Source of the DNA: a virus
DNA length: 20,632 bases
IMG/VR virus record: IMGVR_UViG_3300030118_001181
Location: 1-20,632 of that record
Reading direction: 5' to 3' (one strand)
The notes under the pieces were generated by a model. The model did not search any database. It was not told the DNA's origin and saw only the letters and a list, made by a program, of their open reading frames with translations. The translations under genes and the position numbers were made by a program. Of this stretch, positions 1-20,632 are shown piece after piece (positions within the stretch are counted from its first letter, which is position 1; each line of letters opens with the position of its first letter).

Positions 1-1218
1 ATATGTGGACCAGGACCTAAATTTAAACCACAAAACAGAAGTGGTAAAGCGTGGTCATCTACAGAGTTTACTGTAGGTACTAGAACAGTTACAGGTATTA
101 AATCACCGACAATGGTAGGCATTGGTCGTGGTGGTAAGATACTGTCAAGAGACTGCGATATTATTATTGCTGATGACATTGAAGATCACAGTTCTACTAT
201 GCAACCAGCATCAAGAGAAAACACAAGAAACTGGTGGACAACAACATTGTCAAGTCGTAAAGAGGAACACACCGCTATGGTAGTTATTGGTTCTAGGCAA
301 CACTATGATGACTTGTACTCACACTTGTTAGAAAACGAATCTTGGAAAACTATTGTAGAAGAAGCACACGATACAGCTTGTACTTTACCTGACTGGGATG
401 AAACAGAACACAATGATTGTATGTTGTGGACAGGTAAAAGAACATACAAGTGGTTAATGGACAGAAAAAGAGCAGCAGAGACAACAGGTGGTAGAGCAAT
501 ATACGAAATGGTTTATCTTAATGTAGCTATGCCAGATGGTCTTGCTTTGTTTGACAGAGTAGAGATAGAAGAGTGTAGAGATCAGAAAAGAGATATAGGA
601 CACATACCACCAGGTATTCGTTTGATTGCAGGACTTGACCCTGCATCTACAGGTTATCAAGCTGCGTTTTTGTGGGCTTACAATATGGATGCTAACAAAT
701 TGTATATGGTAGATATGAACAATAGTTTAGGTGGCGGTATACCACAAGCATTAGAAATTATAAAAGAATGGTGGAGCAAATATAATTTATCACATTGGGT
801 AATAGAAGAAAATGGTTTCCAAAAAGCTATTAGACAAGATAAAAGCATAAGAGAGTTTGCATCAAGTCATGGTATATTTTTGGAAGGACATGAGACATAT
901 AAAAATAAATTTGACCCAGTGTATGGTGTAACAGCTATGAGACCTATGTTTCAAGAACAAATAATTTCTTTACCATATCTTAGCTTTGAAGCACAAGAGA
1001 AGGTAAACTTATATACAAGTCAGTTAGTTTACTTTTCTTCTGCAAAAAATAAAAGCAAAAGTGTAGGTACAAAAACTGACATAGTTATGGCAAGTTGGTT
1101 TCCAATGAGAGCTATAAGAAGAATGCAAAAAGAAAAATTTGCAGAGTTAGGATATGAATACAATCCTAGCTTTACTGGCTATAATTCAAGTAATATGGAT
1201 ATAGATAATTGGAGTTAA
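1..1218 (+). CDS. terL: Terminase large subunit, 5'-truncated by the window edge
   Basis: This is the motor ATPase and nuclease that packages phage DNA into the prohead by docking on the portal. The frame is open from base 1, so the first ATG at 112 is internal; 405 residues are visible. Residues 54-62 form the Walker B strand (IIIADDIED). Residues about 98-110 carry the ATPase coupling motif (IGSRQHYDDLY), like the GTRxHxDDL motif of phage terminases. The C-terminal half is the RNase H-like nuclease: D213 in GLDPAS, E269/E270 in IEENG and D360 in KTDIVMASW are the probable metal ligands. Walker A lies upstream of the window. The stop is 4 bases before the portal gene, the usual terminase-portal neighbourhood. 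The family call is strong; the terminase subtype cannot be settled here. Confidence 0.93.
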   Translation: MCGPGPKFKPQNRSGKAWSSTEFTVGTRTVTGIKSPTMVGIGRGGKILSRDCDIIIADDIEDHSSTMQPASRENTRNWWTTTLSSRKEEHTAMVVIGSRQHYDDLYSHLLENESWKTIVEEAHDTACTLPDWDETEHNDCMLWTGKRTYKWLMDRKRAAETTGGRAIYEMVYLNVAMPDGLALFDRVEIEECRDQKRDIGHIPPGIRLIAGLDPASTGYQAAFLWAYNMDANKLYMVDMNNSLGGGIPQALEIIKEWWSKYNLSHWVIEENGFQKAIRQDKSIREFASSHGIFLEGHETYKNKFDPVYGVTAMRPMFQEQIISLPYLSFEAQEKVNLYTSQLVYFSSAKNKSKSVGTKTDIVMASWFPMRAIRRMQKEKFAELGYEYNPSFTGYNSSNMDIDNWS

Positions 1219-1222
1219 ACAG

Positions 1223-2983
1223 GTGTTAGACAGCAATAAAATATACGACAGAATAGATTACCTTAGAGTTGTAAATCAAGAACAAATGATTGATAGGTCA
1301 AGGATTAGAGACATAATGAATGGTGGTGAAGCTGGAGTACATGCTTTATTAGGTAAATCAATAAATGTAGAATACCACGAATTACCAGCACCTAATTTAT
1401 TTTTAACTGCGTTAGAAAGATTTGCACAAAAATTAGGTAGAAGTCCAGATTTAAAAGTAGATATAGTAAATCAAAAAGATTCTGAAAGAGCAAAAAAGAA
1501 ATCTGAAAAATTAGAACGCATTGTAATGGCGTATGATAAAAACCAAAAATTAAACATGCAACTACCACAAGTTGGTAGATGGCTACCAGGTTATGGATTT
1601 GTTGTATGGGTAGTCAAACACAAAAAAGATAAAGATGGTAATCCATATCCTTACGCAGAATTAAGAGACCCATTTAGTTGTTACCCAGGTTATTTTGGTA
1701 ACGATCAACAACCAAAAGAACTTGCAATAATAACTAGAGTTCCACATAAAATTTTAGCCGATCAATATCCAGAAGCTAAACCATACATATACGCACAAGA
1801 AGATAATGATGGATTTCAAAATGCATACTCTGCATTGATGAATGGTAATGATAAGTCTGGAAGTTGGGCAAGTTCAACAGGGCATGGCAAAGTAGTAGTA
1901 GAGTATATGAACGAAGATGGTACATATGTTTATTTACCAGAAAACAAAAAAACTATTGACTACATGGAAAATCCATTAAAATCTGGTCCATGTTTTGTTA
2001 TAGCTAAAAGATACAGTTTTGATCAGATGCAATCACAATTTCAACACATTACTGGTCTTATGGCAAATATGGCAAAAATAAACATACTTGGAACTATTGC
2101 CATGGAAGATGCAGTGTTTACAGAAACAAACATAATTGGTGAGATTGAATCAGGAAAATATAGAAAAGGCAGATTTGCTGTTAACTATTTAACACCTGGT
2201 TCGCAAGTGTCAAAGCCAGTCAACAATCTACCTTATCAATTATTTCAACAAGTAGATAGACTTGAAAGACACTTGCGACTTGGTGCTGCTTATCCAGTTT
2301 CTGATGATGGACAATCACCTAATTCTTTTGTTACTGGTAGAGGATTAGAAGAGCTTGGACAATCTGCATCACTGCATGTAAGAGAATATCAATCAGTATT
2401 AGCAAATGCATTAGAAGAACTTGATGCTAAAAGATTAGAATATGATGAATCAATGTTTGGTAATACAAGAAAACCAATAGCAGGTTTTCACAAAGGAACT
2501 GCTTATAGAGAAAACTACACACCATCTGTAGATATAAAAGAATTTTACAATACAAGAAGAGTCTATGGTGTTATGGCAGGATTTGATGAGCCACAAAAAA
2601 TTATTACAGGGTTGCAATTAAAACAACAGGGTATTATTGATACACAAACATTACAAGAAAACATGGATGGGTTAGATAATATAACTAAGATACAACAAAG
2701 AATATCTGCAGAAAAAGCTGAAACAGTATTGTTTGAGTCTTTAATGGCACAAGCTGCACAAGGAGATCCAAAAGCAACTATGGCAGCTATAGAAATAAGA
2801 AAAAATCCACAAAACATGACAAGAATTATGGATAAATTTTACACACCAGAAGAACCAACTATGACAGAAGAAGAAATGTTACTAGCACAACAACAAGCAG
2901 CAGGTGTACCACAAGGACCAGTTGCTGAACCAGACATAGCAAGTGTATTAGCTGGATTAGCAGGTGGTGGTCCAGTTGCCTGA
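1223..2983 (+). CDS. Portal protein
   Basis: This is probably the dodecameric portal ring at the capsid vertex through which DNA enters and leaves. The start is a GTG at 1223, supported by GGAG at 1211-1214, 8 bases upstream and inside the end of the terminase gene. At 586 residues it is within the usual portal size range. It shows the expected layout: a helical N-terminus, a central alpha/beta region with an aromatic-rich stretch (PFSCYPGYFG, about residues 150-160), and a C-terminal helical part including SPNSFVTGRGLEELGQSAS (about 366-384), like the portal clip/crown segment before the long helix. The last 40 residues are low-complexity (Gln, Ala, Gly, Pro). Placement directly after terminase and before scaffold/capsid supports the call. 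I infer function from layout and overall look, not from a catalytic motif. Confidence 0.85.
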   Translation: MLDSNKIYDRIDYLRVVNQEQMIDRSRIRDIMNGGEAGVHALLGKSINVEYHELPAPNLFLTALERFAQKLGRSPDLKVDIVNQKDSERAKKKSEKLERIVMAYDKNQKLNMQLPQVGRWLPGYGFVVWVVKHKKDKDGNPYPYAELRDPFSCYPGYFGNDQQPKELAIITRVPHKILADQYPEAKPYIYAQEDNDGFQNAYSALMNGNDKSGSWASSTGHGKVVVEYMNEDGTYVYLPENKKTIDYMENPLKSGPCFVIAKRYSFDQMQSQFQHITGLMANMAKINILGTIAMEDAVFTETNIIGEIESGKYRKGRFAVNYLTPGSQVSKPVNNLPYQLFQQVDRLERHLRLGAAYPVSDDGQSPNSFVTGRGLEELGQSASLHVREYQSVLANALEELDAKRLEYDESMFGNTRKPIAGFHKGTAYRENYTPSVDIKEFYNTRRVYGVMAGFDEPQKIITGLQLKQQGIIDTQTLQENMDGLDNITKIQQRISAEKAETVLFESLMAQAAQGDPKATMAAIEIRKNPQNMTRIMDKFYTPEEPTMTEEEMLLAQQQAAGVPQGPVAEPDIASVLAGLAGGGPVA

Positions 2984-3188: not shown

Positions 3189-3559
3189 GAAAAAAAAGTA
3201 AGTTAAAAGAATTTACAGACATGAAAGCAGATGTTGACAATGCAGGTCTTTATGTACCACCAAGAGCTGAAGGAGACCCTTATGGACAAACAAAAGATTT
3301 ACAAACACAAGTAGATGCGGTTGGCGGTCCACTAGCACAAGAAGTAGCTGCAACAGGCGGTATGCCAAATGTAGATAATTTACCAGTTATGTCAGGAGAT
3401 CAATTATTTGACGCTCCTACACAACTACCAGATCAACCAGGGAATACAATTACAGATACATCACAAATATTTAATCCAGAATCAAACAGGGTAGAAGTAT
3501 TAAAAAATATAATATTAGAAAAATATCCACATAGAGCAATTAAAAATAGGTTGTTATGA
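3182..3559 (+). CDS. Small virion-associated protein, unknown function
   Basis: This 125-residue protein is not assigned to a family. The GTG start at 3182 follows a very strong ribosome site (AGGAGG at 3172-3177, spacing 4 bases), better than that of its neighbours; an in-frame ATG at 3221 has no such site. The N-terminus is lysine-rich (RKKSKLKEF). The middle, residues about 25-95, is low in hydrophobics and rich in Pro, Gly, Gln and Asp (for example DAPTQLPDQPG), so probably disordered. The last 25 residues form a likely amphipathic helix with a basic end. Short disordered proteins of this sort occur beside portal genes in podovirus-like genomes. Its stop overlaps the giant gene through ATGA, so the two are translationally coupled. 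Confidence 0.7.
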   Translation: MVRKKSKLKEFTDMKADVDNAGLYVPPRAEGDPYGQTKDLQTQVDAVGGPLAQEVAATGGMPNVDNLPVMSGDQLFDAPTQLPDQPGNTITDTSQIFNPESNRVEVLKNIILEKYPHRAIKNRLL

Positions 3560-6500
3560 GTTATTTCACTAAGTGGAGTGAAGATTGGCTTAATGCAAAA
3601 AATGAAAGAGAAGCACTTAGTCAATTCCAAAACAATGAAGAGGCAACAGCAGATACTGATTTATTAACTAAAAGATATTACGAATTAGAACAATTTAATC
3701 CTAGAGAAGATGAAAATTTATTATCAGCATTAGCTAGTGAAAATGCTACTAATACCGATTATTACAATTTATGGAAAACAACTAATAGTAATGATTACAG
3801 AAAATATTCTGGTTATGTTCCATTAGAAGCAAAAGAACATACTTCTTTTGTAAAATCTGCATTAGCATTAGATTTTAAAAATCCATTAAGAATAGGTTCA
3901 TTAGTAAGAAGAGGTTTAGATGCAAGATACCCAGGAACTAATTTTTCTAGCACATTGTGGAATGGTGCATTATTATCTTTGGAATCAATAACTTATCCAT
4001 TTCAAAGTATTTTTGGTCCAGCTATGGGTATTGAATATGAAGCAGCAGCAGATCGTATAATGAAAAATAGAGGCGATACATCTGGTGCAAGAAGTTTTAG
4101 AAGCTACCCAGGAGAACAAGGGGAACAAAAAAAATTACCATGGACAGTAAGGGCAAGGGCAGGTTTAGAAGCATATGTAAAAGGGTATGGTTTATCTGGT
4201 ACAGCAGGTGCTATTGCTGGTGCTAAATTAGGTGCTACAACAGGTAGTGCTGCAGGACCAGTAGGAACATTTATAGGTGGCAGTTTAGGTGCAATAGGTG
4301 GTGCTATTCTTGGTGCAACAGGACAAGCTATTGTCGGTGGTGGTTACGAAAATAATCCAGGTATTAAAAATGATTTTATTAGATTTGCACCTAGTGAGTC
4401 TGCATTAGAGTATCTAGGAGAAATAGGTGTTGATTACAAAAAAATAGAAGAAGATAATATTACTAATTTAGGTGCTGTATTAGAAGCTGCACCAGATATA
4501 TACAACAAAAATTTGCAAGTAGTTACAGATGGTAAAAAAAGAGAATTAACATTTAGTGAAAAAGCAGATGTATTTTATTTAACTGCAAATGAATTATTGG
4601 CAGCACCATTAACAGAAGAACAATCTGCAATAGAAATATTTAACACAGGTAAAAGCATTAATGTGCCGCAATTTTTTAATAGAAGCGAAGTGTTAAATGA
4701 TGCGATAAGAAGTAGAGATGGTTTGTATGCACAAGGTATAACAGCAAATGTAGGAGATTATTACAGAATGGCATTGTTAGGAAGTATGGAAAATAAATAT
4801 TCTCCTAAATATGCACTTACAGAAGAAATAGATGAAGCATACGAAATATCTGTATTGGCTATTAGACAGTTATTAGCACAAGGAGATATTACAGAAGAAC
4901 AACAAAAATTATTACTAGAAGATATAGAAACTACTGCTAACGAAATGTATTCAGAACTTAAATTTAATCCAGACACAAAAGGTGCTGGTAGATTTTTATC
5001 AGGATTGTTAAATTTTTATATAATGTATAAAACAGATCTGTTTGTAATGGGAAGTAAAGGTGTTGGTGTTGCAGGTAAAAGTGTAGATACTGATTTAGTA
5101 TTAGCAGGATTAGGTAAACAATACAATGATGAAGTTATTAAAGGCGGAATGGAAGTGTCAGAGTGGTGGGCTAAAAATGATGATGCATTAAGAGGATGGA
5201 CTAATAAATTTCAACAATTAATGGAAGAGTCACCAGATGCACCAGCATTGTTAGCTATGGTAGAAAATGGTATGCACCCAGAGTTTGCATTAAGATTAGT
5301 AGATAATCCAAGTGCAACTTACGATATATTAAAACAAGGAGTTACAGAAGGATTTGTAGCTGATGTAAGAGCAGGTTCAAGAACTATACCAGGAAGCAAA
5401 GGTCCTATTGGTGGTGAAACAGTTGGTGATGCAGTGCAATATGCATTACAACCTAAAGTATTAGATGATGCATTTATAGACAATATAGCAGATTTAATGA
5501 AGGGTAATGTAGATGAAGTATTTAACCAAGCTGCATATTCAAGAACTGGTAGTGTTTTAGATATATTTTTAGGCAGAGATAGAAGATTGCCTTCTATGCC
5601 ATGGGGTGATTTATCTAACCCACAAAATGCAGCAGATACATTTTTTAAAGTTGCAAACATGTTATCTATACCAGATCCAGTCATAGAAAAGTATTTAAGA
5701 CAATTTGTTCGTGCAGTACAAAATGGAGACCAGGCACTAGCACAAAAAATATACTATGACGATTTGCTTAAAGTAGAAGGTGCAATACAACTTAAAGCAT
5801 TGTTTGGTTTGTCAGATGACGAGATAGCAAAGTATTTTCAAAAAAACATAGATGAAGTTAGAGGGTTCGGTGTTGAAGGCGGTATATATAATGCTTCTAT
5901 ATTAAATAAATTTAGAGACCCAGATTTTATAAATGTAATTGTTAAAAAAACATTTGGTAATTTATTTGCTAATGAAGAAGATTTAATAAAATTTTCAGAA
6001 AAATTTATTTCTATAATAGGACAAACTAGAGATATGTCTATTGCTGTGCCTAACCTAAGACAAACATTACGATACACAGGTTTAAAAAGAAAATTAAGAA
6101 ACAGATGGAGTGGCTCAAAGACAGTAGACGAAAGTATAGCAACAATCAGAAAAGCACATGATGAAGGTGTACCTGGAACATTTTTTGACCCAGATACACC
6201 TTTAGGAGAAATTACAAAAGGTGCATTTGCAGATATGAAAGATCCATCATTGTTGTATAGAGGTCTTGAAACAGGTATTGGTTTAGCTGAAACAGGATTA
6301 TTTACTGCAATATCAAGAGGATGGATGCCATTACAATTATTATTTAGATTATCTTTCCCATTAAAAGTTATGTTAGATGGACAATTAAGAATGTCAGCAT
6401 TAGGTATAGACTCATTATTTAGAAATCCTGTTGGCTTACTTAAATTACTTGCTAATGACCCAGAAGGTTATTTAGCAAAAGGATTAGGAATAGATGTATT

Positions 6501-9500
6501 TACTGGGCTACAAGGACCATTTAGAACTGTATCAGAAAAAGGTCCACAATTTCTGCCAAGGTCTTTGCGTAAAGTTATGAATCTTGTACAAGAAGGTAAA
6601 CAAGAATATTCTATTCCAGAAGTTATGGCTATGTTTGCAAGAGACCCTAAATTTACATCACAGTTTACAAAACCAACTGACCTATGGGATGAAGCATTAA
6701 AACAAGGTACAAAAAATGTTAAGTTAAAAGATGGCACAGTATTACCTTTTGTGCCAAATGATGAATTTATAGAAGCATATGTAGATTTCCTAGTCACTCA
6801 ATTAGTGCATGATCCATTAATGCCAACAATAGCAAGAGGGTTAAGAGAAGGGTTAACAGATGATGAAATGGTAAAACAAATACTTGATAGTCAAGAACTA
6901 ACACAAGAACTGTTAACACTCAATCAAAGAATTATTGCAAGAAATCAAAAAAATGGTGGAGTAAAAATTGTAAAAATAATAGAAGATGACACAGATGTAG
7001 CAAACATAGTTGCACAATATAGACAAACTATAAATGGTTTTGCTGGTGGTAGTGATGACATTATTGATGTTATTGGAAATGGCACAATAAAAGGTATAGA
7101 TTTAAAGAGTTTTAGCATATTAAAACAAACACAAGCAACAAAAGCTAAAAACGAAATACAAAAAATTATGCAACCAGTGTACGAAGATTTACCTAGCTCT
7201 GTACCAATGTTAAGTAAAAATGTTAATAAAGAAGCAGCTAATTTTGTTACATCTTTTTTTGACAGTATGTTTTTTGCTGTAGGTCAGCTTGAAGCAGTAT
7301 GGTCCAGAATACCTACATTTAAACAGGCATACTTTTATTTCTTAGAAAACAACATACCATTTGCACAAAAAGAAGCATTAGCAGAATTACTTGCAAAACA
7401 TTTTGATCCAGAAAGTGTAATTAAATTACCAGACAATATTGTACAGTTAGCAAAAGAAAACTTAGAAGCAGCAAGAATAACACCAGAAGAGTTGCAATCT
7501 ATAATGAATGCAAAAGTACCAGTAAAACTTCAATACAATGCTAACTCTATAGATACAGTTCTTTATAACACAGAGGGATTGTTTGATGTTAGATTGTTTA
7601 GAGGTACATCTGCTACAGATGAAATAGTATTTGATTTAGATTTACAGAAAGCAGAGTTTACAGCTTTTAAAACTGAAAGAGAAATAGCTAATGTAAGAGC
7701 AGGTGCAAACAATACAAAAATATCTGCATATGCAGCGTCTATACATGATGAAGCGTTAATAGTAAATGGCGGTTTGTCAGAACAACAACTAACAAAATTA
7801 AAACAAAATTTAACTACAAAATTAGAAGATGATGCATTAGTTGACAAGATAATAGATGATTTTGCAAAAGCATTAGAAGATAATCCAGGTATGTCATACG
7901 CAGAAATATTAGAAAGATTAGGTATTAGTAACAAAGAATTTAATATTGCAAAGATTACAGATGATTTAAGAAAAGGTAGACATAAAGAAGGTGATGTAAA
8001 TCCAGCAATAATTAAAAGAGTTTTAGATTTAGATACCAAACGACCAATACCAAATAAAAAAATAATAGATGGTGAAGAAAGAAATATATGGAATGATGCA
8101 AATTCAGGACAGTTTGGTGGTAGTTATGATTTAAGTAAAAAAGTAGCAGATTCACAAGACATGGATTTCTTAGAGGGTATATATGTTAGTCCATATGCAA
8201 CTAGAGTTAAAAAAGTTAAATCAGATGTTGAACCTGGCACTATAGCACCAGTAGAAATACCAAAATCAGAATTTACTCCACAAGTTATAAAAGAATACAT
8301 AGAAACAAATAAAGATTTGTTACGAAGGCAGGGACATTACTTAGGTATATGGGATGATGGTAGCACAGTTTATATAGATGTTTCTATAAAAATACCATTA
8401 AAAGAACAAAGAGGATTACTAGATGAACAAATTGCTAAAGCTATGTATGTAGGTCTGTTGTCAGAACAACAATCTATAGCTGTTATTAAAAAAGTTTCTA
8501 CTCCTACTGTGGGTGCAGATGGTAAACAAGTTGTTGTAGATACACTTGAAATATCATATCCAAAAGTTTACAAAAAAAATGGAATTGCATCACACACATC
8601 ATTAAATTACATAAAACAATATGGAACAGAATTACTAGAAAGTATTAATAAACTTAATTCATTAATTAGAAACACTGGTGTTGCACCAATAGTTAAAGGC
8701 AAAAGAGGTAAAGTTAACAGTAACAATGTGTTATTTAGTTCAGGTATGCATGGTAATTTAAACACTATAGATGATGCTAATAAATTAATATTGTTCGGTG
8801 GTAAAGATAATCCACAACTAAACAAACTTACACAAGTAGATTATTTTTCTATGCTAGATTTGCATGGCATTAGATCTAATCTAAAAAGAAATATGACTTA
8901 TGACGATTTAGACAGAAGAGCAGCAGAATATGGATATGAGCTACATAACAGATTATTGTATAACTTGCTAGAAAGAGGTTATTTAGCTGAAGCATATCGT
9001 GTTGCATTACCATTCTTTGAAGCATATAGAGAGGTGTTAGGTAGATATGCAACATTAGGTGCTGTAAATACTAGAGCAGCAGCACAAGTACAACACATTT
9101 ACAGAAGAGGTGTAGAAACAAATATTATATATGAAGATAAGTATGGAGAAAAATATCTAATACTACCAGTAGGTGGTACACCATTAGAAGATTATGTTAA
9201 GTCTGAAGGTAGAGGCACATGGGTAAATGATATGGATATAGATGATTCTAAAGTTATATTAAAAAGAGGAATACCAATATCTGCATTAGGTGTAGCAGGT
9301 GGTGGTTTATATCCACCATTAGGACCAGTAGTAGCACTGCCAGTAGGTTATCTGACAAAAGATAAACCAGATCTTCGTAGAATGTTTGAACGAACAATAT
9401 TTCAGTTTGGTTTGCCATTTGAATCAAGAGGCGACACATTTGTTGGTGAAGCATTAGAAGAATCAATGCCATCAGTAGGTAGAAATTTATTAGGTGCAGT

Positions 9501-10716
9501 ATTTGGTGAAAATTCACCATCATTTGGTTTAGATGAAGATATATGGTTTAGATCTGTAAACGAAGGATTGCAAATTGCAGCAGTATTATATCCAGATATA
9601 GCACAAGATTTTGAAGCATTAGAACCTGTAGCACAACAAATAGCAAAAAATATTTATCAATTAAAAGCATGGGATAGATTTATAAATCCATATGCACCTA
9701 ACTTGCGTTTGTTGTATGAAGTAGATGTTAATGATGAAATGTTTGCAAAATGGTATGGAGAAAAAGGTGAGGAATCAGGATTAATGTGGAACTCTTTTGT
9801 AGAGTTAGCAGTAATACATACATATTACAGAGACCTGAGAAGTTATTATTCACATTATATGGGTACAAGAGCTGCAGACTTTGAAGCAACAAAACAAATG
9901 GTATTGCTTTTTGACTTAGGCAAGTATGACTTAGAAGATAGTTATACATCTATAGCATTAGTAAAGCAAGGTAAAAAAATAACAGAGTCTGGTAAATTAC
10001 CAATGACAAAACCAGAGTATGACTTTGTCAATGACAATGAAGAAGATTATAAAAAATATGGTGGATCAATATTATATTTTTTTGAGGGTCTTGGTACAGG
10101 TGATGTAGATTACTCCGCATATCAATCATTAGATAACTTAGGTAAAGTTACACCATTAACACCAGATGAGTTCTTTTATTCTGCTGCTATGTATGGTTCA
10201 TCTATTGTAGAAAGGGCATTAAAAAATGCAGAAAGAAAAAGATTACAACAAGCAGGTTATTCAAACACAGACGACTTGTGGAAAATTAGTATGGCAAAAA
10301 TAGATATTAAATTAAGAGAAATGTTTCCACTTGCATATGGTAGAGATTTAGGTGAGTTGTCAAAAATAGATGGTTACAGCACTGTATCTAATCAAGAGTA
10401 TGACATAGAAATAAGAATGATGGAAGAAATTTATAAAGACAAAGCATTTAAAGATAGTCCAGTGTTTCCATTTTTAGAGGAGTATTTAATTGCAAGAGAA
10501 AGCGTAATAGCATCTGTAATGACAGTTAAACAACAACCAACAAGACAGGATGCTATAGACTTTATAACTCGTAATGATTCAGAAGATGCACAAGAAATGA
10601 GAGATATACTGTATTATAAAGGTGTAGAGATAGCTAAGAAAAACTATATGTTTGCTATCATGTTTGATGAGATATTTTATGAGGAAATATCTTACTATGG
10701 AATAGGAACAAGCTAA
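3556..10716 (+). CDS. Giant 2386-residue virion protein, probably ejected
   Basis: No enzyme family is recognised with confidence. The ATG at 3556 overlaps the upstream stop (ATGA), with only a short AGG at 3548-3550. Residues about 213-266 form a glycine-zipper segment (GAIAGAKLGATTG, GGSLGAIGGAILGATG), a pattern seen in membrane-inserting proteins. Residues 916-960 form a second hydrophobic block (WMPLQLLFRLSFPLKVML, then DGQLRMSALG). Residues about 1590-1680 look beta-rich (DDGSTVYIDVS, 1601-1610). Residues 1905-1930 (ISALGVAGGG, PPLGPVVALP) recall segments I associate with other very large phage proteins. The rest is mainly helical, without tandem repeats. Position after portal, a lysozyme-like neighbour and the zipper suggest an internal virion protein ejected to form a channel. 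A tape measure is less likely from the location. Confidence 0.8.
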   Translation: MSYFTKWSEDWLNAKNEREALSQFQNNEEATADTDLLTKRYYELEQFNPREDENLLSALASENATNTDYYNLWKTTNSNDYRKYSGYVPLEAKEHTSFVKSALALDFKNPLRIGSLVRRGLDARYPGTNFSSTLWNGALLSLESITYPFQSIFGPAMGIEYEAAADRIMKNRGDTSGARSFRSYPGEQGEQKKLPWTVRARAGLEAYVKGYGLSGTAGAIAGAKLGATTGSAAGPVGTFIGGSLGAIGGAILGATGQAIVGGGYENNPGIKNDFIRFAPSESALEYLGEIGVDYKKIEEDNITNLGAVLEAAPDIYNKNLQVVTDGKKRELTFSEKADVFYLTANELLAAPLTEEQSAIEIFNTGKSINVPQFFNRSEVLNDAIRSRDGLYAQGITANVGDYYRMALLGSMENKYSPKYALTEEIDEAYEISVLAIRQLLAQGDITEEQQKLLLEDIETTANEMYSELKFNPDTKGAGRFLSGLLNFYIMYKTDLFVMGSKGVGVAGKSVDTDLVLAGLGKQYNDEVIKGGMEVSEWWAKNDDALRGWTNKFQQLMEESPDAPALLAMVENGMHPEFALRLVDNPSATYDILKQGVTEGFVADVRAGSRTIPGSKGPIGGETVGDAVQYALQPKVLDDAFIDNIADLMKGNVDEVFNQAAYSRTGSVLDIFLGRDRRLPSMPWGDLSNPQNAADTFFKVANMLSIPDPVIEKYLRQFVRAVQNGDQALAQKIYYDDLLKVEGAIQLKALFGLSDDEIAKYFQKNIDEVRGFGVEGGIYNASILNKFRDPDFINVIVKKTFGNLFANEEDLIKFSEKFISIIGQTRDMSIAVPNLRQTLRYTGLKRKLRNRWSGSKTVDESIATIRKAHDEGVPGTFFDPDTPLGEITKGAFADMKDPSLLYRGLETGIGLAETGLFTAISRGWMPLQLLFRLSFPLKVMLDGQLRMSALGIDSLFRNPVGLLKLLANDPEGYLAKGLGIDVFTGLQGPFRTVSEKGPQFLPRSLRKVMNLVQEGKQEYSIPEVMAMFARDPKFTSQFTKPTDLWDEALKQGTKNVKLKDGTVLPFVPNDEFIEAYVDFLVTQLVHDPLMPTIARGLREGLTDDEMVKQILDSQELTQELLTLNQRIIARNQKNGGVKIVKIIEDDTDVANIVAQYRQTINGFAGGSDDIIDVIGNGTIKGIDLKSFSILKQTQATKAKNEIQKIMQPVYEDLPSSVPMLSKNVNKEAANFVTSFFDSMFFAVGQLEAVWSRIPTFKQAYFYFLENNIPFAQKEALAELLAKHFDPESVIKLPDNIVQLAKENLEAARITPEELQSIMNAKVPVKLQYNANSIDTVLYNTEGLFDVRLFRGTSATDEIVFDLDLQKAEFTAFKTEREIANVRAGANNTKISAYAASIHDEALIVNGGLSEQQLTKLKQNLTTKLEDDALVDKIIDDFAKALEDNPGMSYAEILERLGISNKEFNIAKITDDLRKGRHKEGDVNPAIIKRVLDLDTKRPIPNKKIIDGEERNIWNDANSGQFGGSYDLSKKVADSQDMDFLEGIYVSPYATRVKKVKSDVEPGTIAPVEIPKSEFTPQVIKEYIETNKDLLRRQGHYLGIWDDGSTVYIDVSIKIPLKEQRGLLDEQIAKAMYVGLLSEQQSIAVIKKVSTPTVGADGKQVVVDTLEISYPKVYKKNGIASHTSLNYIKQYGTELLESINKLNSLIRNTGVAPIVKGKRGKVNSNNVLFSSGMHGNLNTIDDANKLILFGGKDNPQLNKLTQVDYFSMLDLHGIRSNLKRNMTYDDLDRRAAEYGYELHNRLLYNLLERGYLAEAYRVALPFFEAYREVLGRYATLGAVNTRAAAQVQHIYRRGVETNIIYEDKYGEKYLILPVGGTPLEDYVKSEGRGTWVNDMDIDDSKVILKRGIPISALGVAGGGLYPPLGPVVALPVGYLTKDKPDLRRMFERTIFQFGLPFESRGDTFVGEALEESMPSVGRNLLGAVFGENSPSFGLDEDIWFRSVNEGLQIAAVLYPDIAQDFEALEPVAQQIAKNIYQLKAWDRFINPYAPNLRLLYEVDVNDEMFAKWYGEKGEESGLMWNSFVELAVIHTYYRDLRSYYSHYMGTRAADFEATKQMVLLFDLGKYDLEDSYTSIALVKQGKKITESGKLPMTKPEYDFVNDNEEDYKKYGGSILYFFEGLGTGDVDYSAYQSLDNLGKVTPLTPDEFFYSAAMYGSSIVERALKNAERKRLQQAGYSNTDDLWKISMAKIDIKLREMFPLAYGRDLGELSKIDGYSTVSNQEYDIEIRMMEEIYKDKAFKDSPVFPFLEEYLIARESVIASVMTVKQQPTRQDAIDFITRNDSEDAQEMRDILYYKGVEIAKKNYMFAIMFDEIFYEEISYYGIGTS
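4192..4353 (+). other. Glycine-zipper membrane-like segment in the giant protein
   Basis: Residues about 213-266 of the 2386-residue protein contain Gly or Ala at every third or fourth position (GTAGAIAGAKLGATTG, then GGSLGAIGGAILGATG) separated by Ile, Leu, Val and Ala, with almost no charge apart from one Lys. Two helices joined by a GPVG turn is the simplest reading. Such glycine zippers pack transmembrane helices tightly and occur in channel-forming proteins. In a virion protein this suggests insertion into the host inner membrane after ejection. This is inferred from composition; no topology program was run. Confidence 0.6.
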
Positions 10717-11669
10717 TGTTAAAGAATTTTATTATACAATACGATACAGTATCTAATGTAGATGAAGGTACAGATCCTATAACAATTCTTACAGATGATG
10801 AAAATGGTATACCTGTAGACCCTGGATTAGCACAATCAATAGTAGATAGACTTGTAGATGAATTAGGTTTAGATTCTAACAAACCACTAGGAATAGGTTT
10901 TAAAAGTAAATACAAAGTAATGGTTCTTGATGATGTATTAGGTGTAGAAGCACCTATGGATGTAGATGCAGAAGATTATTTAAGGTCACAAGGTTTTAAA
11001 TATATATATTTTCCAGAAGATATTACACAAGAAGGTGGTGCATTTGGTCCTAAGATAGTAGAACAAATGAAAAATATGATGGCAACAATAGGATTTATAA
11101 ACATAAACAAAACTACTGGCGTACAAAAAGATGCAGAGTATTACAAAGGTATACAAAAACTTATGGAGTTTTCTATGAATAATAAGGGTAAGTTTACTTA
11201 TGTACAAGGATTAAAAATATTGTACAACGCAACCCTTGCAGGACAAGCTCCTGTACAACAATATCAAATGGACACAGATGAGATGGATGAATTAGTAGAT
11301 GATTACATTGGTAAAGCAGAAACTAAAAAAGGTAGTCCATTAACAAAAAATGAAAAGGATTATTTAACAAGACAACTAAATGCTAAGCTAGGAGACTTTA
11401 GTTCTTCACTTGCAAACTTACAACCAGCATCAACAGCAAGGATAGAGTTTGATGAAATGTCAGGTGTGGCTACAACTATACCTGGACAAGAGGCAGAGCA
11501 ACCAGATGTAGAAGGTTTAGAAGATGATTTATCAGGAGTCGTAGATGAATTTATTGCACCAAGAGAAGAATTAGCAAGACAAGCAGATATAGAATCAGAT
11601 GCAGCTACAAGATTTGCTAGAACAATGGGTAGTTTGTCAGCAGCAGAAAGTGATAGAGTAAACAGATAA
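10716..11669 (+). CDS. Acidic protein of unknown function in the giant-protein cluster
   Basis: This 317-residue protein is not recognised. It starts at the ATG of TAATG overlapping the giant gene's stop by one base, with AGGAA at 10704-10708, 7 bases upstream. The N-terminal half (1-110) seems alpha/beta (IGFKSKYKVMVLDDVLG, GFKYIYFPEDI). The middle (about 110-235) is helical and includes KFTYVQGLKILYNA and SPLTKNEKDYLTRQLNAKL, which look like short helix-turn-helix packing modules found in phage structural proteins. The last 80 residues are acidic and probably disordered (QPDVEGLEDDLSG) and end in a charged helix. There is no signal peptide, transmembrane helix or catalytic motif. It lies between the giant protein and the lysozyme-like protein, so a role in the same virion complex is likely. 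Confidence 0.75.
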   Translation: MLKNFIIQYDTVSNVDEGTDPITILTDDENGIPVDPGLAQSIVDRLVDELGLDSNKPLGIGFKSKYKVMVLDDVLGVEAPMDVDAEDYLRSQGFKYIYFPEDITQEGGAFGPKIVEQMKNMMATIGFININKTTGVQKDAEYYKGIQKLMEFSMNNKGKFTYVQGLKILYNATLAGQAPVQQYQMDTDEMDELVDDYIGKAETKKGSPLTKNEKDYLTRQLNAKLGDFSSSLANLQPASTARIEFDEMSGVATTIPGQEAEQPDVEGLEDDLSGVVDEFIAPREELARQADIESDAATRFARTMGSLSAAESDRVNR

Positions 11670-12733
11670 TGGCAACTACAGCAGAAGTTATAGAAGCGTT
11701 AAAACAAGAGGGTCTTGCAGATGATGTAATAAAAATGCTTGTACCTATACTTGCTTACGAATCAAGAGTAGATGGCGTTCCATATGTACTTACCGCTATA
11801 GATTCTGAATCACCATCTTATGGGTTAGGTCAAGCAAACATAACATCAATGGAATCTGCATATTGGATGGCATTTAACGAACTTAATATAGATCTGCCTG
11901 GTCAAACGCAACAACAAGCAGACCAGTGGAGAAGAGCAGGGTATGATGTTAATGAAGAAGATGTAAGAGACTTTACACCAGAACAAAAAGAATTTGTAAT
12001 TAATTACATGAAAACTGCAGATTTAGAATTTAACGCTAAATTAGTAAAACACATGTTGCATCAAAAAGAATTAGAACAAGACTTAAATCCTATGGATGCA
12101 ATAAAAGATTTGTATAAATTAACTATTGCTAAATTTAATCAACCAGATAGACATCCAGAAACTGCAGCGTTTAAAAGCGATATAGATGCAGAAGTTGAAG
12201 AATATTATAGTATGCCACCAACCACAACCACAGTTCCAGAAACTACTACAACTACAGTTCCAGAGACTACTACAACAACTACGCCAACGACTACAACAAC
12301 TATGCCAGAAACAACAGTACCACAGGTAGATGTAGGTTTTGACGAAAGAAGTCCTGGCATAATAAATCAATTTGGTACACCTCCACAAGATCAAATAAAT
12401 ACTGGTGCAGGTGGTAACCAATCATTTGCGGATAATTTTAATGAAAATTTTTCTGAACCTGTTGGTCCAATAACACAAAAAATTAGAGATAAATACAATT
12501 CAAAAGAACAAAAAAGTATTACACAAATTATTGAAATGTTACTTGCTACTACTAATAAAAGAAGAGCTGAAAAAGGAATGAAAGAACTTGATAAAAAAAA
12601 CATATTAGAAAAAAGAATGAGCAATTTAATAGACAGAGATAATCAATTTTTTAGAGAAACAGGGAAAATGCAATTTCCTGGTAGTAGTGTTCCTTTCAAT
12701 ATAGAGGATGTAACAGACTTTTTAGACGAATAA
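11669..12733 (+). CDS. Virion-associated lytic transglycosylase-like protein with Thr/Pro linker
   Basis: This is probably a peptidoglycan-cleaving enzyme that opens the wall during DNA entry. Residues 29-58 resemble the active-site region of SLT/goose-type lysozyme folds: a helix ending in YES with candidate catalytic E31, then SPSYGLGQANI (48-58), matching the S-x-GL-x-Q signature. Residues about 182-219 are a low-complexity linker almost entirely of Thr with VPE, TPT and MPE breaks. Residues 220-354 form a Gly/Asn-rich stretch and then a charged helical tail (KRRAEKGMKELDKKNI). There is no signal peptide, as expected for a virion-packaged enzyme rather than a secreted endolysin. The start overlaps the previous stop in TAATG and has no clear ribosome site, so coupling is likely. 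The lysozyme fold is inferred from a short motif. Confidence 0.72.
   Translation: MATTAEVIEALKQEGLADDVIKMLVPILAYESRVDGVPYVLTAIDSESPSYGLGQANITSMESAYWMAFNELNIDLPGQTQQQADQWRRAGYDVNEEDVRDFTPEQKEFVINYMKTADLEFNAKLVKHMLHQKELEQDLNPMDAIKDLYKLTIAKFNQPDRHPETAAFKSDIDAEVEEYYSMPPTTTTVPETTTTTVPETTTTTTPTTTTTMPETTVPQVDVGFDERSPGIINQFGTPPQDQINTGAGGNQSFADNFNENFSEPVGPITQKIRDKYNSKEQKSITQIIEMLLATTNKRRAEKGMKELDKKNILEKRMSNLIDRDNQFFRETGKMQFPGSSVPFNIEDVTDFLDE
12212..12328 (+). repeat. Thr/Pro low-complexity linker coding repeat
   Basis: About 39 codons, mostly ACA, ACT, ACC and ACG, encode repeats of the form VPE plus four to six Thr. The codons for Thr are mixed, so the protein composition and not just the DNA seems to be maintained. 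Such linkers are common in extracellular proteins of actinobacteria, above all Acidimicrobiia, and act as flexible, extended spacers between a catalytic domain and an attachment domain. Here it separates the lysozyme-like domain from the helical C-terminus. Confidence 0.85.
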
Positions 12734-12734
12734 A

Positions 12735-15700
12735 ATGGCAGAGGAAAAATTACCTGATGCTGATGAAATAAAAATAGTTGGTATTTTTGCTAGTACAAGA
12801 ACTACACCAGATGGACCAAGTTTAGTTTACGCAGACATAAATGACATATTTGATTTTGTTGAATATGACAGAAGAGAAATTTCTGCATTTGGACAACAAA
12901 AATCTGATAGAACTATTGATGCAATTAAAAAAACAATATATGAAAAAGGTTACTTGTTTGACATAGGAGAATCATACAATAGTTCTATCGCATTTCCAGT
13001 TTCTATGGGAATTAATGGAAGAATACAAATAGGAGAAGGTAACCATAGATTAAGAGCAGCTTATGAAGTAGCACAAGAAACAGGACAAACAATATATGTA
13101 CCAATATATGCTTACCCTTCTAATGTAAGTGTTGCAGGTGATAAATTTTTTGGAGGGGTGTATCGTGGTAAATCACGATTTGTTGGCGAACAAACACTGT
13201 TTGATGCTTTAAGACAATTAATGTTTGATTCAGGTGCTGACGATTATGCAGTTGATGACAAAATTGGAGAACGATTAGGTTCAAAAAGTCAATATACAGG
13301 CAGTAATTATTTAGGTTCTGGTGGAACTGGTGGTAATAGCGTAAGTCAAAAAGATATGAAAAAGTTTTTTACTGCTATAGGAGTAGAGGTTTTAACTTAT
13401 GATGAATTACCAGAAGATAATGTATACAAAACAGGAATTAATAATTTAACAAACACTACAAATGTAGTAGATGAAGGCATAGAGTTATTTCATGGAAGAG
13501 GTAAAGGTAGTAGAGTTCCAGAAGATTTACATGCAGGTACATATCAAGCAGCAGTAGATAGAAATGCATTTATGTTTGGTAGCGAAAATATGTATGAAAT
13601 GATATATGAAATTAAAAGAGATTTTGTAAATCAAGTTGCAGAAGCATTAGAGAACATAGAGCTAGATGATGGTTCATTTTATACCACAGACTATTTACAA
13701 CCAGAAGTTTATTTACCTAATGGTAATGTTGATACTTATGACATAAGAATAGATGTATTAGAAGATGGAACAGTAGATGTTGTATTAGGTAAAGATGGTG
13801 AAGAAATAGCTACAGTGTTTAATGATAGTAGTGCTGGGTATGTCATTGATGAATTAGAAGATGGTACTAATTTATATTCACAAATTAATCAGGAAAAATT
13901 AGAGGACATTATACAAAATAGAGATGTAGATAAATATTTTGGAGAAGCAGGAGGGTTTTTAGATCCTGATAGAAGTTTTAAATACGAAAATGGTTATGAA
14001 TTATATAGAGTAACTATTAGTCCAAATGCAAAAGTTGTAGAGTTTACAGAAGATATACAGATGGTGTTGGATGGAAAACCAAAATCTATAGACCCAGATA
14101 TATTTGTAAATTATTTAGAATCTGGAAATTTAGCTACTGTAGATGAAATTTTATTACCAAATGGTAAGACAATAACACTATCAGGAAGTAATAAAGAAAA
14201 AATAAATATCTTAAAAAATGAAATGGATGTTGTTGGTTACAGAAATCAAATGGAAGATGTCGGTAGTACATCTTATTATTTTTTAAACAAAGATGTTTAC
14301 ACAGAGACACCAGTAGATGCAGCATTTAATAAACAATTTGATGAGGATGTACTTAAAAAGTTTGTACAAAATGATCCATACAGAGATTTAGATGCATTTG
14401 ACACCGCACCTATAGACAGACAAAGGTTAGCTAAAACATTTATGGGAGAAGTAGAAGATATTGCTGATGGCAAACCACTATTAGAAACAAGAATGTTACC
14501 TGGTGATGACCGATTACAATGGGCAAATGATGTTATAAAACCTAACAAAATTTTTAATCCAGATGCTTTAACTAGATTAGAAAGTTCAGAACCTGGTGAC
14601 GAAATGAGATATATTTGGAATGATACAACAGAATTTAAGCCAAGTGAATTGTATTCTAGGATAATAACTAACACTGCTACTGATGAAGATATAACTAAAT
14701 TTTTTATTTACTTAGCTACACATAGCGAAACACAAGCATATGCTAGACAACCATTTAGTAAACCAGATGCTATTGCAGATATTGTAAAAATAGGAATATT
14801 TAGTGATTTACCATTAGACGAAATAATACCTATGGGTCAACCATATTTTGAAGCAAAATTTATAAACAATTTAAAAAGTAAAAACATATTAATAGGAGAC
14901 GAAATATATAAAGTGTTAGTTAATTTAGTAACTGAACAAGGACAGTTTGCTAATTTAAAAGAAACAATGAGAAATGTAATACTAGAAGCTCACAGAGATA
15001 TATACGCTGCAAACCCTAATGATTACTTTATTGTATGGAGAGGTGGTGATTTAAATAGATTCGTTCCTTGGCAATCAACAAGTAAAAGTTATGGGTCTGC
15101 ACAAGGAGTAATGTATCAAATGGTACAAGGTGGTTATGGTGGTGGTAGATCTGTAGACACTTATGTAGTACATAAAAATAATATGATAGATTTAGATGCA
15201 TTAGGTTTATCGTATAGTAATGAAAAAGAAATTATTGTATTAACTGAAGAATTAAAATCACCTCTTGCAAAAAGACCTACAACAATAGAAGGTAGAAAAG
15301 ATATTAGGTCAATAAATGATTGGTGGTTATTAGCTAGAGAACGAGAAGAGTCATTTCCAAAAGATGGCAAGGTCATTACAAACATATCACAACCACTTAC
15401 TGATGCAGGTCAATCTACACAAAATTGGTTTAGTGATGTAATTGATGGTATTGATCCTAAATACAAACCAAAAAAACCATATCAACAAATAATAGAATTA
15501 AATAATCCTGCATTATACGCTTTTCAAGATGACTACAATGCTTTTATAAAAGGCGGTGGTAATTTTAATCAACACATATTTACTTCTATACCTACATTTT
15601 ATGAAACACAAGTTGCAAAAATGCAAGGTATAACAAATATGATTAACAAAAATAAACTTGTAGTTGGTGATATGTCAGGACCAAGACCATACAGAATATT

Positions 15701-17156
15701 AGACATAGGTGGAACTGAAGGTGCATGGGCAAAAGCTCTTGCAAAAAATAATCCACTTGTTGATATACAAGTATTAGACCCTAATCTAAAAGCTAAATTA
15801 GCTTTTGAAAGTGGAGATATAGTTACTAATGCACAATTTTTACATGCAGCATTTACACATGTTGTAAAAGATCAAGGCAAACCATTTGTAGAAGGTGGTA
15901 TTAAACAACCTGTATTTTTCCAAGGGTTTAAAAAGCCATACGCTGATATTGTGCATGAATCTATGGCATTTCAATTTATGAGTAATGAGAGAGCAGAACA
16001 AATAAAGTATATTAAAGAAAATGTGTTGAATACAAATGGTGTATTAATAATAGAAGAAAAGTTTTTAGATGACAATCAAGCAATATATGACGCTAATGAA
16101 GCTAAAAAAAATAATTTTAAAGCAGAGTATTACACACCAGAACAATTAGCAGATAAAAAATTAAATGTGTTATTAGATATGGAAGGTAATCAAGTAGCAG
16201 TACAAGAGGTTCAAAAAATATTAGGTGAGAATTTTAATAGTGTAGAACAATATTGGGATGCTGGAAACTTCAAAGGTTTTGTAGCATCAGATGATGCAAA
16301 AAAAGTAGAAGATTTTACAAATGGTATTAATGATGTAGGTTTATCACTAACTAATCATAGCTACTCTACTGCACCTAATAACACTGATATTAAAGGTGCA
16401 ATAGAAAGACAAATGTTTAACAAAGGTACAGATAGTAAACTTGCTGCACAATTAGCAGAAGAGACAGTAAAACAAAATCCTAAGTTTTTTGAAAGAGCCG
16501 CAAATGCATTAAACAATTTTGATCCTTCTTTATCAGCAACTAAATTACTTAGTAGATTAGGAGTTGTTGCTGCACCAGCGTTAAATGTATTAGGTAGAAC
16601 AGCACCACTATACGCACCTGGTGATGTATTTATAGAAAAAGTTGTAGAAAAAACTGTGCCATATTTAGATGACGCAGCAGCTAGATTAGGTTTTGCTAGA
16701 ATACCTTTTAACAAATTATTACCAACATACATATCTTATGAAATAGGAGTAGCATTAGCTGATGTTGCACAAGCAGCTTTGTATGCTTATGATGAATCAC
16801 AAAAAAAAGGTCCAAGACAAGCTAGTAATTTTCAGATAGGATTAACTAAATTATTATTACCAAAAGCATATGAAGAAGAAGCAATAAAAAGAAGTCAGAT
16901 ACCAGGAGATTTACAAGCATTTTATAATACACCTACAGGGAAAAAAGTGTTAGAGGAAGTAGATTTTGGTAGTCAATTTATGAAAGAATTAGAAGCAGAA
17001 AAAATATCTAAGTATTCTCCAGGATGGGGTTTAACTAAAGGATTGTTTAATATAGTCGGTAGCGTCTATGATGCTAGTCAAAACCCTAGTGATTATACTA
17101 CAAAAGTTAAAGAAAATCCTGCTAGTATATATAATGCAGGATTCACAGGAAGATAA
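12735..17156 (+). CDS. Polyvalent virion protein: ParB-like, two ADP-ribosyltransferase-like and methyltransferase domains
   Basis: This 1473-residue multidomain protein is probably packaged and ejected. Residues about 13-130 are ParB/sulfiredoxin-like, with GEGNHRLRAA at 100-109. Residues about 245-520 match ADP-ribosyltransferase-like domains of phage polyvalent proteins: FHGRG (252-256), LHAGTYQAAVDR (265-276), and YRNQMEDVGSTSYYF near 502-516. Residues about 755-840 form a second ADP-ribosyltransferase-like domain: R769 in VWRGGD, STS at 781-783, ExE at E830/E832. Residues about 985-1130 are a Rossmann SAM methyltransferase: LDIGGTEG (D990), VLDPN (D1015), IVHESMAF (1072-1079), then VLIIEEKF. 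The C-terminal 220 residues are Ala-rich and partly hydrophobic. The gene starts one base after the previous stop with no ribosome site. Targets are unknown; activity is inferred from motifs. Confidence 0.8.
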   Translation: MAEEKLPDADEIKIVGIFASTRTTPDGPSLVYADINDIFDFVEYDRREISAFGQQKSDRTIDAIKKTIYEKGYLFDIGESYNSSIAFPVSMGINGRIQIGEGNHRLRAAYEVAQETGQTIYVPIYAYPSNVSVAGDKFFGGVYRGKSRFVGEQTLFDALRQLMFDSGADDYAVDDKIGERLGSKSQYTGSNYLGSGGTGGNSVSQKDMKKFFTAIGVEVLTYDELPEDNVYKTGINNLTNTTNVVDEGIELFHGRGKGSRVPEDLHAGTYQAAVDRNAFMFGSENMYEMIYEIKRDFVNQVAEALENIELDDGSFYTTDYLQPEVYLPNGNVDTYDIRIDVLEDGTVDVVLGKDGEEIATVFNDSSAGYVIDELEDGTNLYSQINQEKLEDIIQNRDVDKYFGEAGGFLDPDRSFKYENGYELYRVTISPNAKVVEFTEDIQMVLDGKPKSIDPDIFVNYLESGNLATVDEILLPNGKTITLSGSNKEKINILKNEMDVVGYRNQMEDVGSTSYYFLNKDVYTETPVDAAFNKQFDEDVLKKFVQNDPYRDLDAFDTAPIDRQRLAKTFMGEVEDIADGKPLLETRMLPGDDRLQWANDVIKPNKIFNPDALTRLESSEPGDEMRYIWNDTTEFKPSELYSRIITNTATDEDITKFFIYLATHSETQAYARQPFSKPDAIADIVKIGIFSDLPLDEIIPMGQPYFEAKFINNLKSKNILIGDEIYKVLVNLVTEQGQFANLKETMRNVILEAHRDIYAANPNDYFIVWRGGDLNRFVPWQSTSKSYGSAQGVMYQMVQGGYGGGRSVDTYVVHKNNMIDLDALGLSYSNEKEIIVLTEELKSPLAKRPTTIEGRKDIRSINDWWLLAREREESFPKDGKVITNISQPLTDAGQSTQNWFSDVIDGIDPKYKPKKPYQQIIELNNPALYAFQDDYNAFIKGGGNFNQHIFTSIPTFYETQVAKMQGITNMINKNKLVVGDMSGPRPYRILDIGGTEGAWAKALAKNNPLVDIQVLDPNLKAKLAFESGDIVTNAQFLHAAFTHVVKDQGKPFVEGGIKQPVFFQGFKKPYADIVHESMAFQFMSNERAEQIKYIKENVLNTNGVLIIEEKFLDDNQAIYDANEAKKNNFKAEYYTPEQLADKKLNVLLDMEGNQVAVQEVQKILGENFNSVEQYWDAGNFKGFVASDDAKKVEDFTNGINDVGLSLTNHSYSTAPNNTDIKGAIERQMFNKGTDSKLAAQLAEETVKQNPKFFERAANALNNFDPSLSATKLLSRLGVVAAPALNVLGRTAPLYAPGDVFIEKVVEKTVPYLDDAAARLGFARIPFNKLLPTYISYEIGVALADVAQAALYAYDESQKKGPRQASNFQIGLTKLLLPKAYEEEAIKRSQIPGDLQAFYNTPTGKKVLEEVDFGSQFMKELEAEKISKYSPGWGLTKGLFNIVGSVYDASQNPSDYTTKVKENPASIYNAGFTGR
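12771..13125 (+). other. ParB/sulfiredoxin-like domain
   Basis: Residues about 13-130 of the 1473-residue protein. The order fits the ParB N-terminal fold: a strand with Arg/Glu (YDRREI), a helix (TIDAIKKTIYEKG), a strand (IAFPVSM), then GEGNHRLRAAYEVAQ at 100-114 and VPIYAY. In this fold the G-x-x-R region binds nucleotide. Known versions act as CTPases, nucleases or in polyvalent phage proteins. I cannot say which activity applies here. Confidence 0.7.
13468..14295 (+). other. ADP-ribosyltransferase-like domain 1 (polyvalent type)
   Basis: Residues about 245-520. The start has LFHGRGKG and LHAGTYQAAVDR, the H-G-x and H-x-G-T-x-x-A-A pattern of the polyvalent-protein ADP-ribosyltransferase-like family. 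The end has YRNQMEDVGSTSYYFLN, which matches the family's closing strand (Y-x-N-x-x-E-D-x-G-x-x-S-Y). The centre (about 320-420) holds an inserted beta-rich stretch that reads YTTDYLQPEVYLPNG and DVVLGKDGEEIATV. Whether it still binds NAD is not known. Confidence 0.62.
14997..15254 (+). other. ADP-ribosyltransferase-like domain 2 with R, STS and ExE
   Basis: Residues about 755-840 show the three signatures of the R-S-E class in order: R769 in IVWRGGD, S781-T-S783, and E830-K-E832 followed by IIVL. Between them is SYGSAQGVMYQM, a helix typical after the STS strand, and DTYVVHKNNMIDLDALG. The ExE pair is the arginine-modifying signature in well-studied enzymes such as T4 Alt. The Arg-to-STS spacing of 12 residues is short for classical toxins but plausible for phage variants. 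Confidence 0.68.
15687..16125 (+). other. Class I SAM-dependent methyltransferase domain
   Basis: Residues about 985-1130. Motif I is LDIGGTEGAW with D990, G992, G993 and G996 forming the SAM loop. The acidic residue closing strand 2 is D1015 in VLDPN, motif IV is the ADIVHESMAFQF strand (D1071, E1075), and the later strand is GVLIIEEKF. Substrate is unknown: I do not see the NPPY or DPPY of N6-adenine enzymes, nor a PC motif of cytosine-C5 enzymes. A protein, RNA or small-molecule target is open. Confidence 0.78.
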
Positions 17157-20366: not shown

Positions 20367-20632
20367 ATGGCAAGTATTTCGTTAACAAACGATACAATAT
20401 ATGCACAAAATATTAATAACTTTGCTGGTGAATTGTTTAAAGTTGGCGGTCAAAGAACACCTTTGCTTTCAGCAGTTGGTGGTTTGAATGGTGGTAAAGT
20501 ATTAAACTCTACATATTGGCAAGTCCAAGTAGAAGATAGTGCAATCATTAATTCAGAACCAACTAAAGGACAAGAAGGTAATACACCTACAGAATATCTT
20601 GGAAGAGATAGAAGTGCATTTACATATGTAAC
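20367..20632 (+). CDS. Major capsid protein, 3'-truncated by the window edge
   Basis: Probably the main shell protein with the HK97 fold. Only the first 88 residues are in the window. The ATG at 20367 follows AGGAGAAG at 6 bases. The N-terminus (MASISLTNDTIYAQNINNFA) has no signal or membrane segment. Residues about 27-60 (VGGQRTPLLSAVGGLNGGKV, then STYWQVQVEDS) and the last visible stretch (TPTEYLGRDRSAFTYV) recall the N-terminal region of SU10-like capsid proteins, where a G-R-x-R motif precedes the first core strand. Placement straight after scaffold supports the call. No family-defining core is visible because the gene is cut. Confidence 0.82.
   Translation, partial: MASISLTNDTIYAQNINNFAGELFKVGGQRTPLLSAVGGLNGGKVLNSTYWQVQVEDSAIINSEPTKGQEGNTPTEYLGRDRSAFTYV

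Follow-up and report, generated by a model that had tools for sequence, protein, structure and literature searches.

In the shufflon of plasmid R64, short in-frame repeats lie within one gene and segments can be exchanged between them, which requires inverted repeats and an adjacent tyrosine recombinase. Integrons hold interchangeable cassettes that are separate genes, share a common short attC site and are moved by IntI. Polyvalent proteins are known as mosaics, and recombining cassettes have been raised as a possibility for one type of their loci (Iyer et al., 2017, PMC5512222); the text of that paper contains no match for "linker", "shuffl" or HPr. In phage genomes, mosaicism is produced by Rad52-like recombinases that act on short stretches of homology (De Paepe et al., 2014, PMC3945230), and mycobacterial prophages exchange polymorphic toxin-immunity cassettes (PMC9934374).

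The gene analyzed here lies on a 20.6-kb fragment of an uncultured marine virus (IMG/VR record IMGVR_UViG_3300030118_001181, 20,632 nucleotides; hereafter the window). Like polyvalent proteins, its product and the relatives are large and appear to be multi-domain mixtures of ADP-ribosyltransferase (ART), ParB-like, GNAT and methyltransferase types, encoded in a terminase/portal context both in the window and in the relatives. Unlike the polyvalent proteins of Iyer et al. (2017, PMC5512222), however, all modules are joined by a single DNA linker, and HPr modules occur. The short in-frame repeats inside one gene resemble those of the R64 shufflon, but linker copies are direct only, and the 18 viral contigs searched yielded no tyrosine recombinase. 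The locus recalls the integron in that its cassettes can be interchanged and share one short joining site; here, however, they lie within a single ORF, and these contigs yielded no integrase either. Annealing at short homology, which we propose as the engine, is shared with phage mosaicism, where the homologies are incidental (PMC3945230), whereas in these arrays a single dedicated sequence recurs at dozens of borders within the gene. The mycobacterial prophages resemble this locus in that actinobacterial phages trade effector cassettes, but they swap whole toxin-immunity gene cassettes (PMC9934374), in contrast to the in-frame modules here, of which the C-terminal types stay last. The layout of polymorphic toxins (constant N-terminus, variable C-terminal toxin, downstream immunity gene) is not that of this gene, in which N-terminal and middle modules vary, several large families are seen only in last position and the downstream gene is of a peptidoglycan-binding, structural type. 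Literature searches returned nothing for the linker peptide, no matching description of linker- or boundary-mediated module exchange, and no description of a joint in polyvalent proteins.

Genomic Context and Host

The gene order of the window is terminase, portal, a small gene, a giant gene, two genes, the effector gene, three genes and capsid gene (Table 1). The first-pass annotation had placed the effector between portal and scaffold genes, and this location holds: terminase and portal lie upstream, and a small gene in scaffold position (a putative scaffold by its place) and the capsid start lie downstream. A 354-aa gene ends one base upstream of the effector ORF, and a conserved 544-aa gene of structural type, which encodes a peptidoglycan-binding motif, adjoins directly downstream. 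The 354-aa gene (window 11669-12733) has a Thr/Pro/Glu repeat stretch (TTTVPETTTTTVPE) and is more variable than its neighbours among close relatives (99% identity in L001, 61% in L002). The giant gene (window 3556-10716) encodes one protein of 2386 aa whose sole matches are tape-measure/lysin-like glycine-zipper proteins; it is likely a giant internal virion or ejection protein.

Table 1. Features of the window. Positions refer to the 20,632-nt stretch; res, residues of the effector protein.
Feature	Position	Strand	Evidence or remark
Terminase large subunit	1..1218	+	5' open; phrog_38 E 7.3e-41
Portal protein	1223..2983	+	phrog_104 E 2.4e-5
Whole modular polyvalent-type effector gene	12735..17156	+	ATG-started ORF, 1473 aa; relatives in 8 contigs
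ParB-like module, res 1-239	12735..13451	+	36-41% identity to M8-type cassettes of several other arrays
Decayed 27-bp in-frame linker copy	13452..13474	+	AACACTACAAATGTAGTAGATGA; peptide NTTNVVDE; 3-bp deletion relative to the consensus
ART-like module 1 (ART1), res 248-577	13475..14465	+	H253, HAGT 266-269, DR, EDxGS
Next module junction	14430..14480	+	Linker unrecognisable: EDIADGKPLLETR versus DTPTNVVDDAPLLETR in relatives
ART-like domain 2 (ART2), first part of C-terminal module M2	14466..15365	+	Invariant R-S-ExE residues
SAM-dependent methyltransferase domain, about res 895-1216	15417..16382	+	PHROG and fold match
C-terminal tail region	16383..17153	+	Res 1278-1347 common to otherwise different last modules (M0)
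Major capsid protein gene, start only	20367..20630	+	3' open; 91-98% identity to full-length relatives

The window terminase matches Streptomyces phages, and the capsid protein of close relatives matches capsids of Mycobacterium, Propionibacterium and Bifidobacterium phages. In the bacterial collection the sole linker match was a 58-kb contig binned to an Actinomycetota MAG (G012:C30, with loci L216-L218). According to the gene lists, the first 14.4 kb of this contig are repeated at its end, and it therefore represents a complete phage genome of ~43.9 kb rather than a chromosome; the genome encodes an exonuclease, an annealing protein and a DNA methyltransferase. On the basis of the capsid and terminase matches and the MAG-binned contig an actinobacterial host is likely, and the source is probably a lytic-looking marine phage of Actinomycetota.

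Domain Composition of the Effector

The effector ORF is complete and has exactly the limits first reported. Four sets of enzyme-like motifs had been reported from its 1473-residue chain, and all are present and conserved in relatives. GEGNHRL occupies residues 100-106, and EGN.RL is kept in 10/10 aligned ParB-module sequences. In ART1, HGRG starts at residue 253 and LHAGT spans 265-269, with H253, H266, G268 and T269 kept in all 10 sequences. ART2 contains WRGG (769), STS (781-783) and EKE (830-832); R769 (codon at nt 15039) is invariant in 13 sequences, and S781 (15075), S783, E830 and E832 (15228) are invariant in 12. LDIGGTEG (989-996) is kept in 9/9 long relatives.

The domain assignments themselves fared unequally. 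That of the methyltransferase was borne out by a match to PHROG 4752 (E 2.7e-6) and by a Foldseek match in the PDB to the class I SAM methyltransferase fold (E 8.7e-9, TM (target) about 0.7), together with the conserved glycine motif LDIGGTEG; the SAM methyltransferases matched by fold include CysG, CmoA and YecO (E 1e-8 to 4e-7). Stand-alone relatives of 32% identity are encoded on a 340-kb jumbo phage contig (L008:9767-11221, + strand) and in Maribacter phage Panino (PP540027.1:31843-32703), where the gene is annotated as tRNA methyltransferase. When 50,697 phage records were searched for relatives, only the methyltransferase part was matched, in one Maribacter phage, and a multi-module relative as query gave no match in the phage records. 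ART2 is assigned by motif, its invariant residues having the catalytic order R, S-x-S, E-x-E of arginine-type ADP-ribosyltransferases. Alignment of ART2 to T4 ModA by hhalign placed R and S-x-S in register, but at a non-significant E of 0.26; no significant score against T4 ModA/ModB was obtained for ART1 or ART2, and methyltransferases dominated the fold-search list of the ART2-containing part. ART1 and the ParB-like module are tentative assignments. The best PDB fold matches of ART1 include ART-fold proteins, weakly (RES toxin, TreX and, lower down, PARP/tankyrase; E 0.15-0.5), and the best viral fold matches of the ParB-like region include, also weakly, a ParB/sulfiredoxin protein (E 0.03, probability 0.99). 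Sequence searches with the ParB-like module gave no match, ParB and ART1 alignment profiles retrieved nothing significant from PDB sequences, and a fold search of residues 1-577 against PDB and viral structures returned nothing below E 0.001; mean pLDDT was 64 in both structure models. With its methyltransferase fold, invariant R-S-ExE residues and the GNAT and HPr modules of its relatives, the protein can be retained as a polyvalent-type multi-enzyme protein of a structural locus. The shared part of the C-terminal tail (residues 1278-1347) is likely to serve in anchoring or packaging.

An In-frame DNA Linker at Module Borders

The modules are separated by a linker of 27 bp (A-GAC-ACA-CCT-ACA-AAT-GTA-GTA-GAT-GA; peptide DTPTNVVD[D/E]), which is found at module borders and whose DNA is near-invariant between unrelated modules. 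Scanning IMG/VR with CCTACAAATGTAGTNGATGA retrieved 86 stretches. Ninety-seven of 100 linker copies from the DNA scan were located within ORFs, all 97 in one frame, and the other three lay near contig ends without a listed ORF of at least 60 aa. In a neutral 16-mer scan of all loci, linker words stood in about 38 different contexts on the left and 38 on the right, and no other repeated linker reached five on each side. On 12 whole contigs, all 22 near-copies were on one strand and confined to a short region per contig, which fell inside the effector gene in the three genomes checked; no inverted copies were present within contigs, where all copies point the same way in one gene. Few additional loci were gained by scanning with the M2 and ART1 alignments. 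Of the 60 capsid-selected loci that extend far enough upstream, 13 have a recognisable linker; the linker is accordingly either the device of one lineage-group or often decayed.

In the window, the linker is degraded at the junction of the ParB-like module and ART1, where no copy is expected by chance (0 expected), and unrecognisable at the other two junctions; the array would thus be static in this lineage. The linker core CTACAAATGTAG (window 13456-13467) contains a small dyad, CTACA-AA-TGTAG, which could be incidental or a candidate protein-binding site.

What is conserved in the linker is its DNA. Among all peptide-perfect linkers, 88/90 have identical DNA. However, the linker DNA itself served as the query for many loci, which biases their linker conservation, and only two sets are free of this bias: the imperfect copies, found by peptide similarity, a criterion blind to synonymous change, and the loci fetched through the capsid gene, independently of the linker. 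In the capsid-selected loci, 17 of 18 peptide-perfect linkers share the same 21 nucleotides, whereas codon usage alone would predict identical DNA at 0.028 per copy (2.8%). Unique imperfect variants differ in 34 non-synonymous versus 2 synonymous codons (neutral expectation 27% synonymous, P 0.001), a count that sets aside two doubtful peptides, TPASVVD and APTTVVD; when these are included, the numbers are 42 and 8 (P 0.05). Both P values are rough, since linker copies are related to each other. As the variants are mostly non-synonymous, the peptide is not what is preserved, and the conservation of the DNA fits its repeated homologous use.

Exchange of Modules at the Linker

The order of domains is not fixed, modules being reshuffled at the linker. 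An alignment of eight relatives showed residues 578-1472 to be constant and everything before them exchangeable. L006 lacks the entire ART1 module, whose homologs occupy other positions in other arrays, and the segment that is first in L001 is the second-to-last module in L007. Once duplicates had been removed, 185 segments remained in 69 ORFs, at 2 to 5 per ORF, and were grouped at 75% mutual coverage into 75 module families; their 116 junctions represent 97 distinct adjacencies. In the five arrays that contain M7, its left neighbour is different each time, and so is its right neighbour; the same holds for M5, and M8 (215 aa), the type of the ParB-like module in the window, is present in five arrays. 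Several families are found both first and mid-array, and the large families M0, M2, M9, M10, M12 and M14 were seen only last.

Homology between relatives begins and ends at the linker. In pairs that share only the right module, nucleotide identity climbs from about 0.3 to 1.0 between linker positions -4 and +2; where the left module is shared, it drops from about 1.0 to 0.25 between positions +21 and +24. The steps in these profiles lie exactly at -4 and +21/+23. Cassettes are gained, lost and replaced with breakpoints at the linker, as pairs of near-identical phages show. In L012 and L059 the middle module is replaced between two linkers while the flanks are 92.5% and 95.7% identical. L097 and L098 share 99.4% identity over 7364 bp from the linker onward and do not match before it, and the upstream 3 kb of L098 match L075 at 95.7%. 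A single 72-aa module with one linker copy distinguishes L051 from L058, and an HPr module, gained or lost, distinguishes L050 from L112. Between distant lineages, module identity has no clear excess over capsid identity, and recent transfer between very distant lineages is therefore not claimed.

Recombination Genes and Alternative Explanations

Neither tyrosine (PF00589) nor serine (PF00239) recombinases were found in 18 viral contigs, and none of the early genes scanned in the complete genome matched a tyrosine recombinase. A Red-like phage exonuclease (phrog_284) is encoded in 19 of 20 contigs, and 17 of 19 have homologs of a single-strand annealing protein, the two genes adjoining in the complete ~43.9-kb genome; both also occur in relatives without recognisable linker. 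According to values cited by De Paepe et al. (2014, PMC3945230), Red-beta needs at least 23-27 bp for pairing and RecA 31-34 bp, and given the former value, a linker of 27 bp fits annealing recombination. We consider it probable that this polyvalent effector gene is diversified by annealing recombination at the in-frame linker, the enzyme and the benefit being inferred. The gene consists of a short N-terminus followed by linker-module repeats and a terminal C-terminal module, and cassettes would be exchanged during co-infection by the phage's own exonuclease and annealing protein, for which the linker might provide the minimal homology. Because every linker copy is in the same phase, the ORF stays open after an exchange. 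The product could be packaged and delivered with the DNA, and shuffling may let the phage vary which host functions or defences are modified, by ADP-ribosylation, methylation, acetylation or other activities.

The initial reading was of one fixed fusion of ParB-like, two ART and methyltransferase domains, acting as an injected multi-tool effector. Domains and locus are as it describes, and the same three-part order recurs in the close relatives L001 and L002; however, a fixed architecture is contradicted by the N-terminal ~577 residues, which are exchanged or absent in most relatives, and this reading is now quite improbable. To seek the novelty in this particular domain order is to overlook the main result, since swapping of modules at the linker has given rise to many orders, of which this is one. 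That the combinations are metagenome-assembly chimeras is more improbable still. Short-read assemblers can misjoin at short repeats such as these 27 bp, and contig L020, with an array ending in a partial aldolase, may itself be chimeric, but misjoining cannot place a linker at the module borders of every such contig, nor would it keep the frame in 97/97 copies. Moreover, of 71 clusters of 420-bp junctions about 20, counted by hand from contig names, recur at 90-100% identity in different IMG datasets (for example L055/L089/L176, L046/L048/L062 and L022/L023/L088), and L176, an independent MAG assembly, has the same array at 99-100%.

If the linker were instead a peptide signal, such as a processing-protease site or a flexible hinge, the protein could be cut into its domains after delivery; the position at module boundaries would suit this role, and polyvalent proteins can be processed, as is DdrB of phage P1 (PMC5512222). 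Yet the conservation of DNA rather than peptide argues against a protease site, the drift of the peptide (34:2, above) being unrestrained, intact proteins with decayed or missing linkers exist, the window included, and the scanned arrays yielded no peptidase domain, which makes a peptide signal improbable. Somewhat less remote, though still unlikely, is a dedicated site-specific enzyme, either an unrecognised recombinase or a homing-type endonuclease, that targets the linker in a shufflon- or integron-like manner. The site is short, fixed, conserved at the DNA level and contains the dyad, and many early genes have no family match; uncharacterised phage genes could encode an unrecognised recombinase. 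Against this stand the missing PF00589 and PF00239 matches in the 18 contigs searched, the uniform orientation of copies in one gene and the weakness of the dyad; given the annealing genes, such an enzyme is also not needed.

Annealing recombination at the linker thus remains the preferred explanation. A stronger version would be a dedicated natural modular-cloning system, in which the linker is kept at the DNA level so that the annealing recombinase can assemble, exchange and rearrange multi-enzyme effectors out of a cassette pool shared across lineages, without any site-specific recombinase; we regard the case for this as evenly balanced. If true, it would constitute a class of protein-diversifying elements alongside shufflons, integrons and diversity-generating retroelements. 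The fixed linker also yields a prediction open to experiment in a laboratory phage, namely that an annealing recombinase should be able to exchange cassettes in frame with no more than about 27 bp of homology. The origin of multi-domain phage effectors had been an open question; the fixed linker makes the process traceable, as cassettes can be counted and their pools compared between oceans, where viruses appear to assemble new multi-tool effectors by cassette swapping.

Module Repertoire

The linker can also serve as a probe for new effector domains: the module families number 75 or more, and the majority lack annotation. The repertoire of the relatives includes HPr, GNAT, ART-like, ParB-like and methyltransferase modules, and most modules had no match. 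HPr modules scored up to 26.7 bits (Pfam cut-off 23), and GNAT was above the cut-off in L043. HPr-like modules with a GLHARP-type signature are encoded in L112:4775-6886 (+), L109:3093-6749 (+) and L085:676-2220 (-). In L020:6354-8405 (+) the last part of the array is the C-terminal half of a class II fructose-bisphosphate aldolase (Pfam E 6.4e-36); this contig is 99.4% identical to L049 as far as about 5.5 kb into the compared stretch, beyond which the two diverge, and the aldolase end may reflect capture of a host gene or a chimeric contig.
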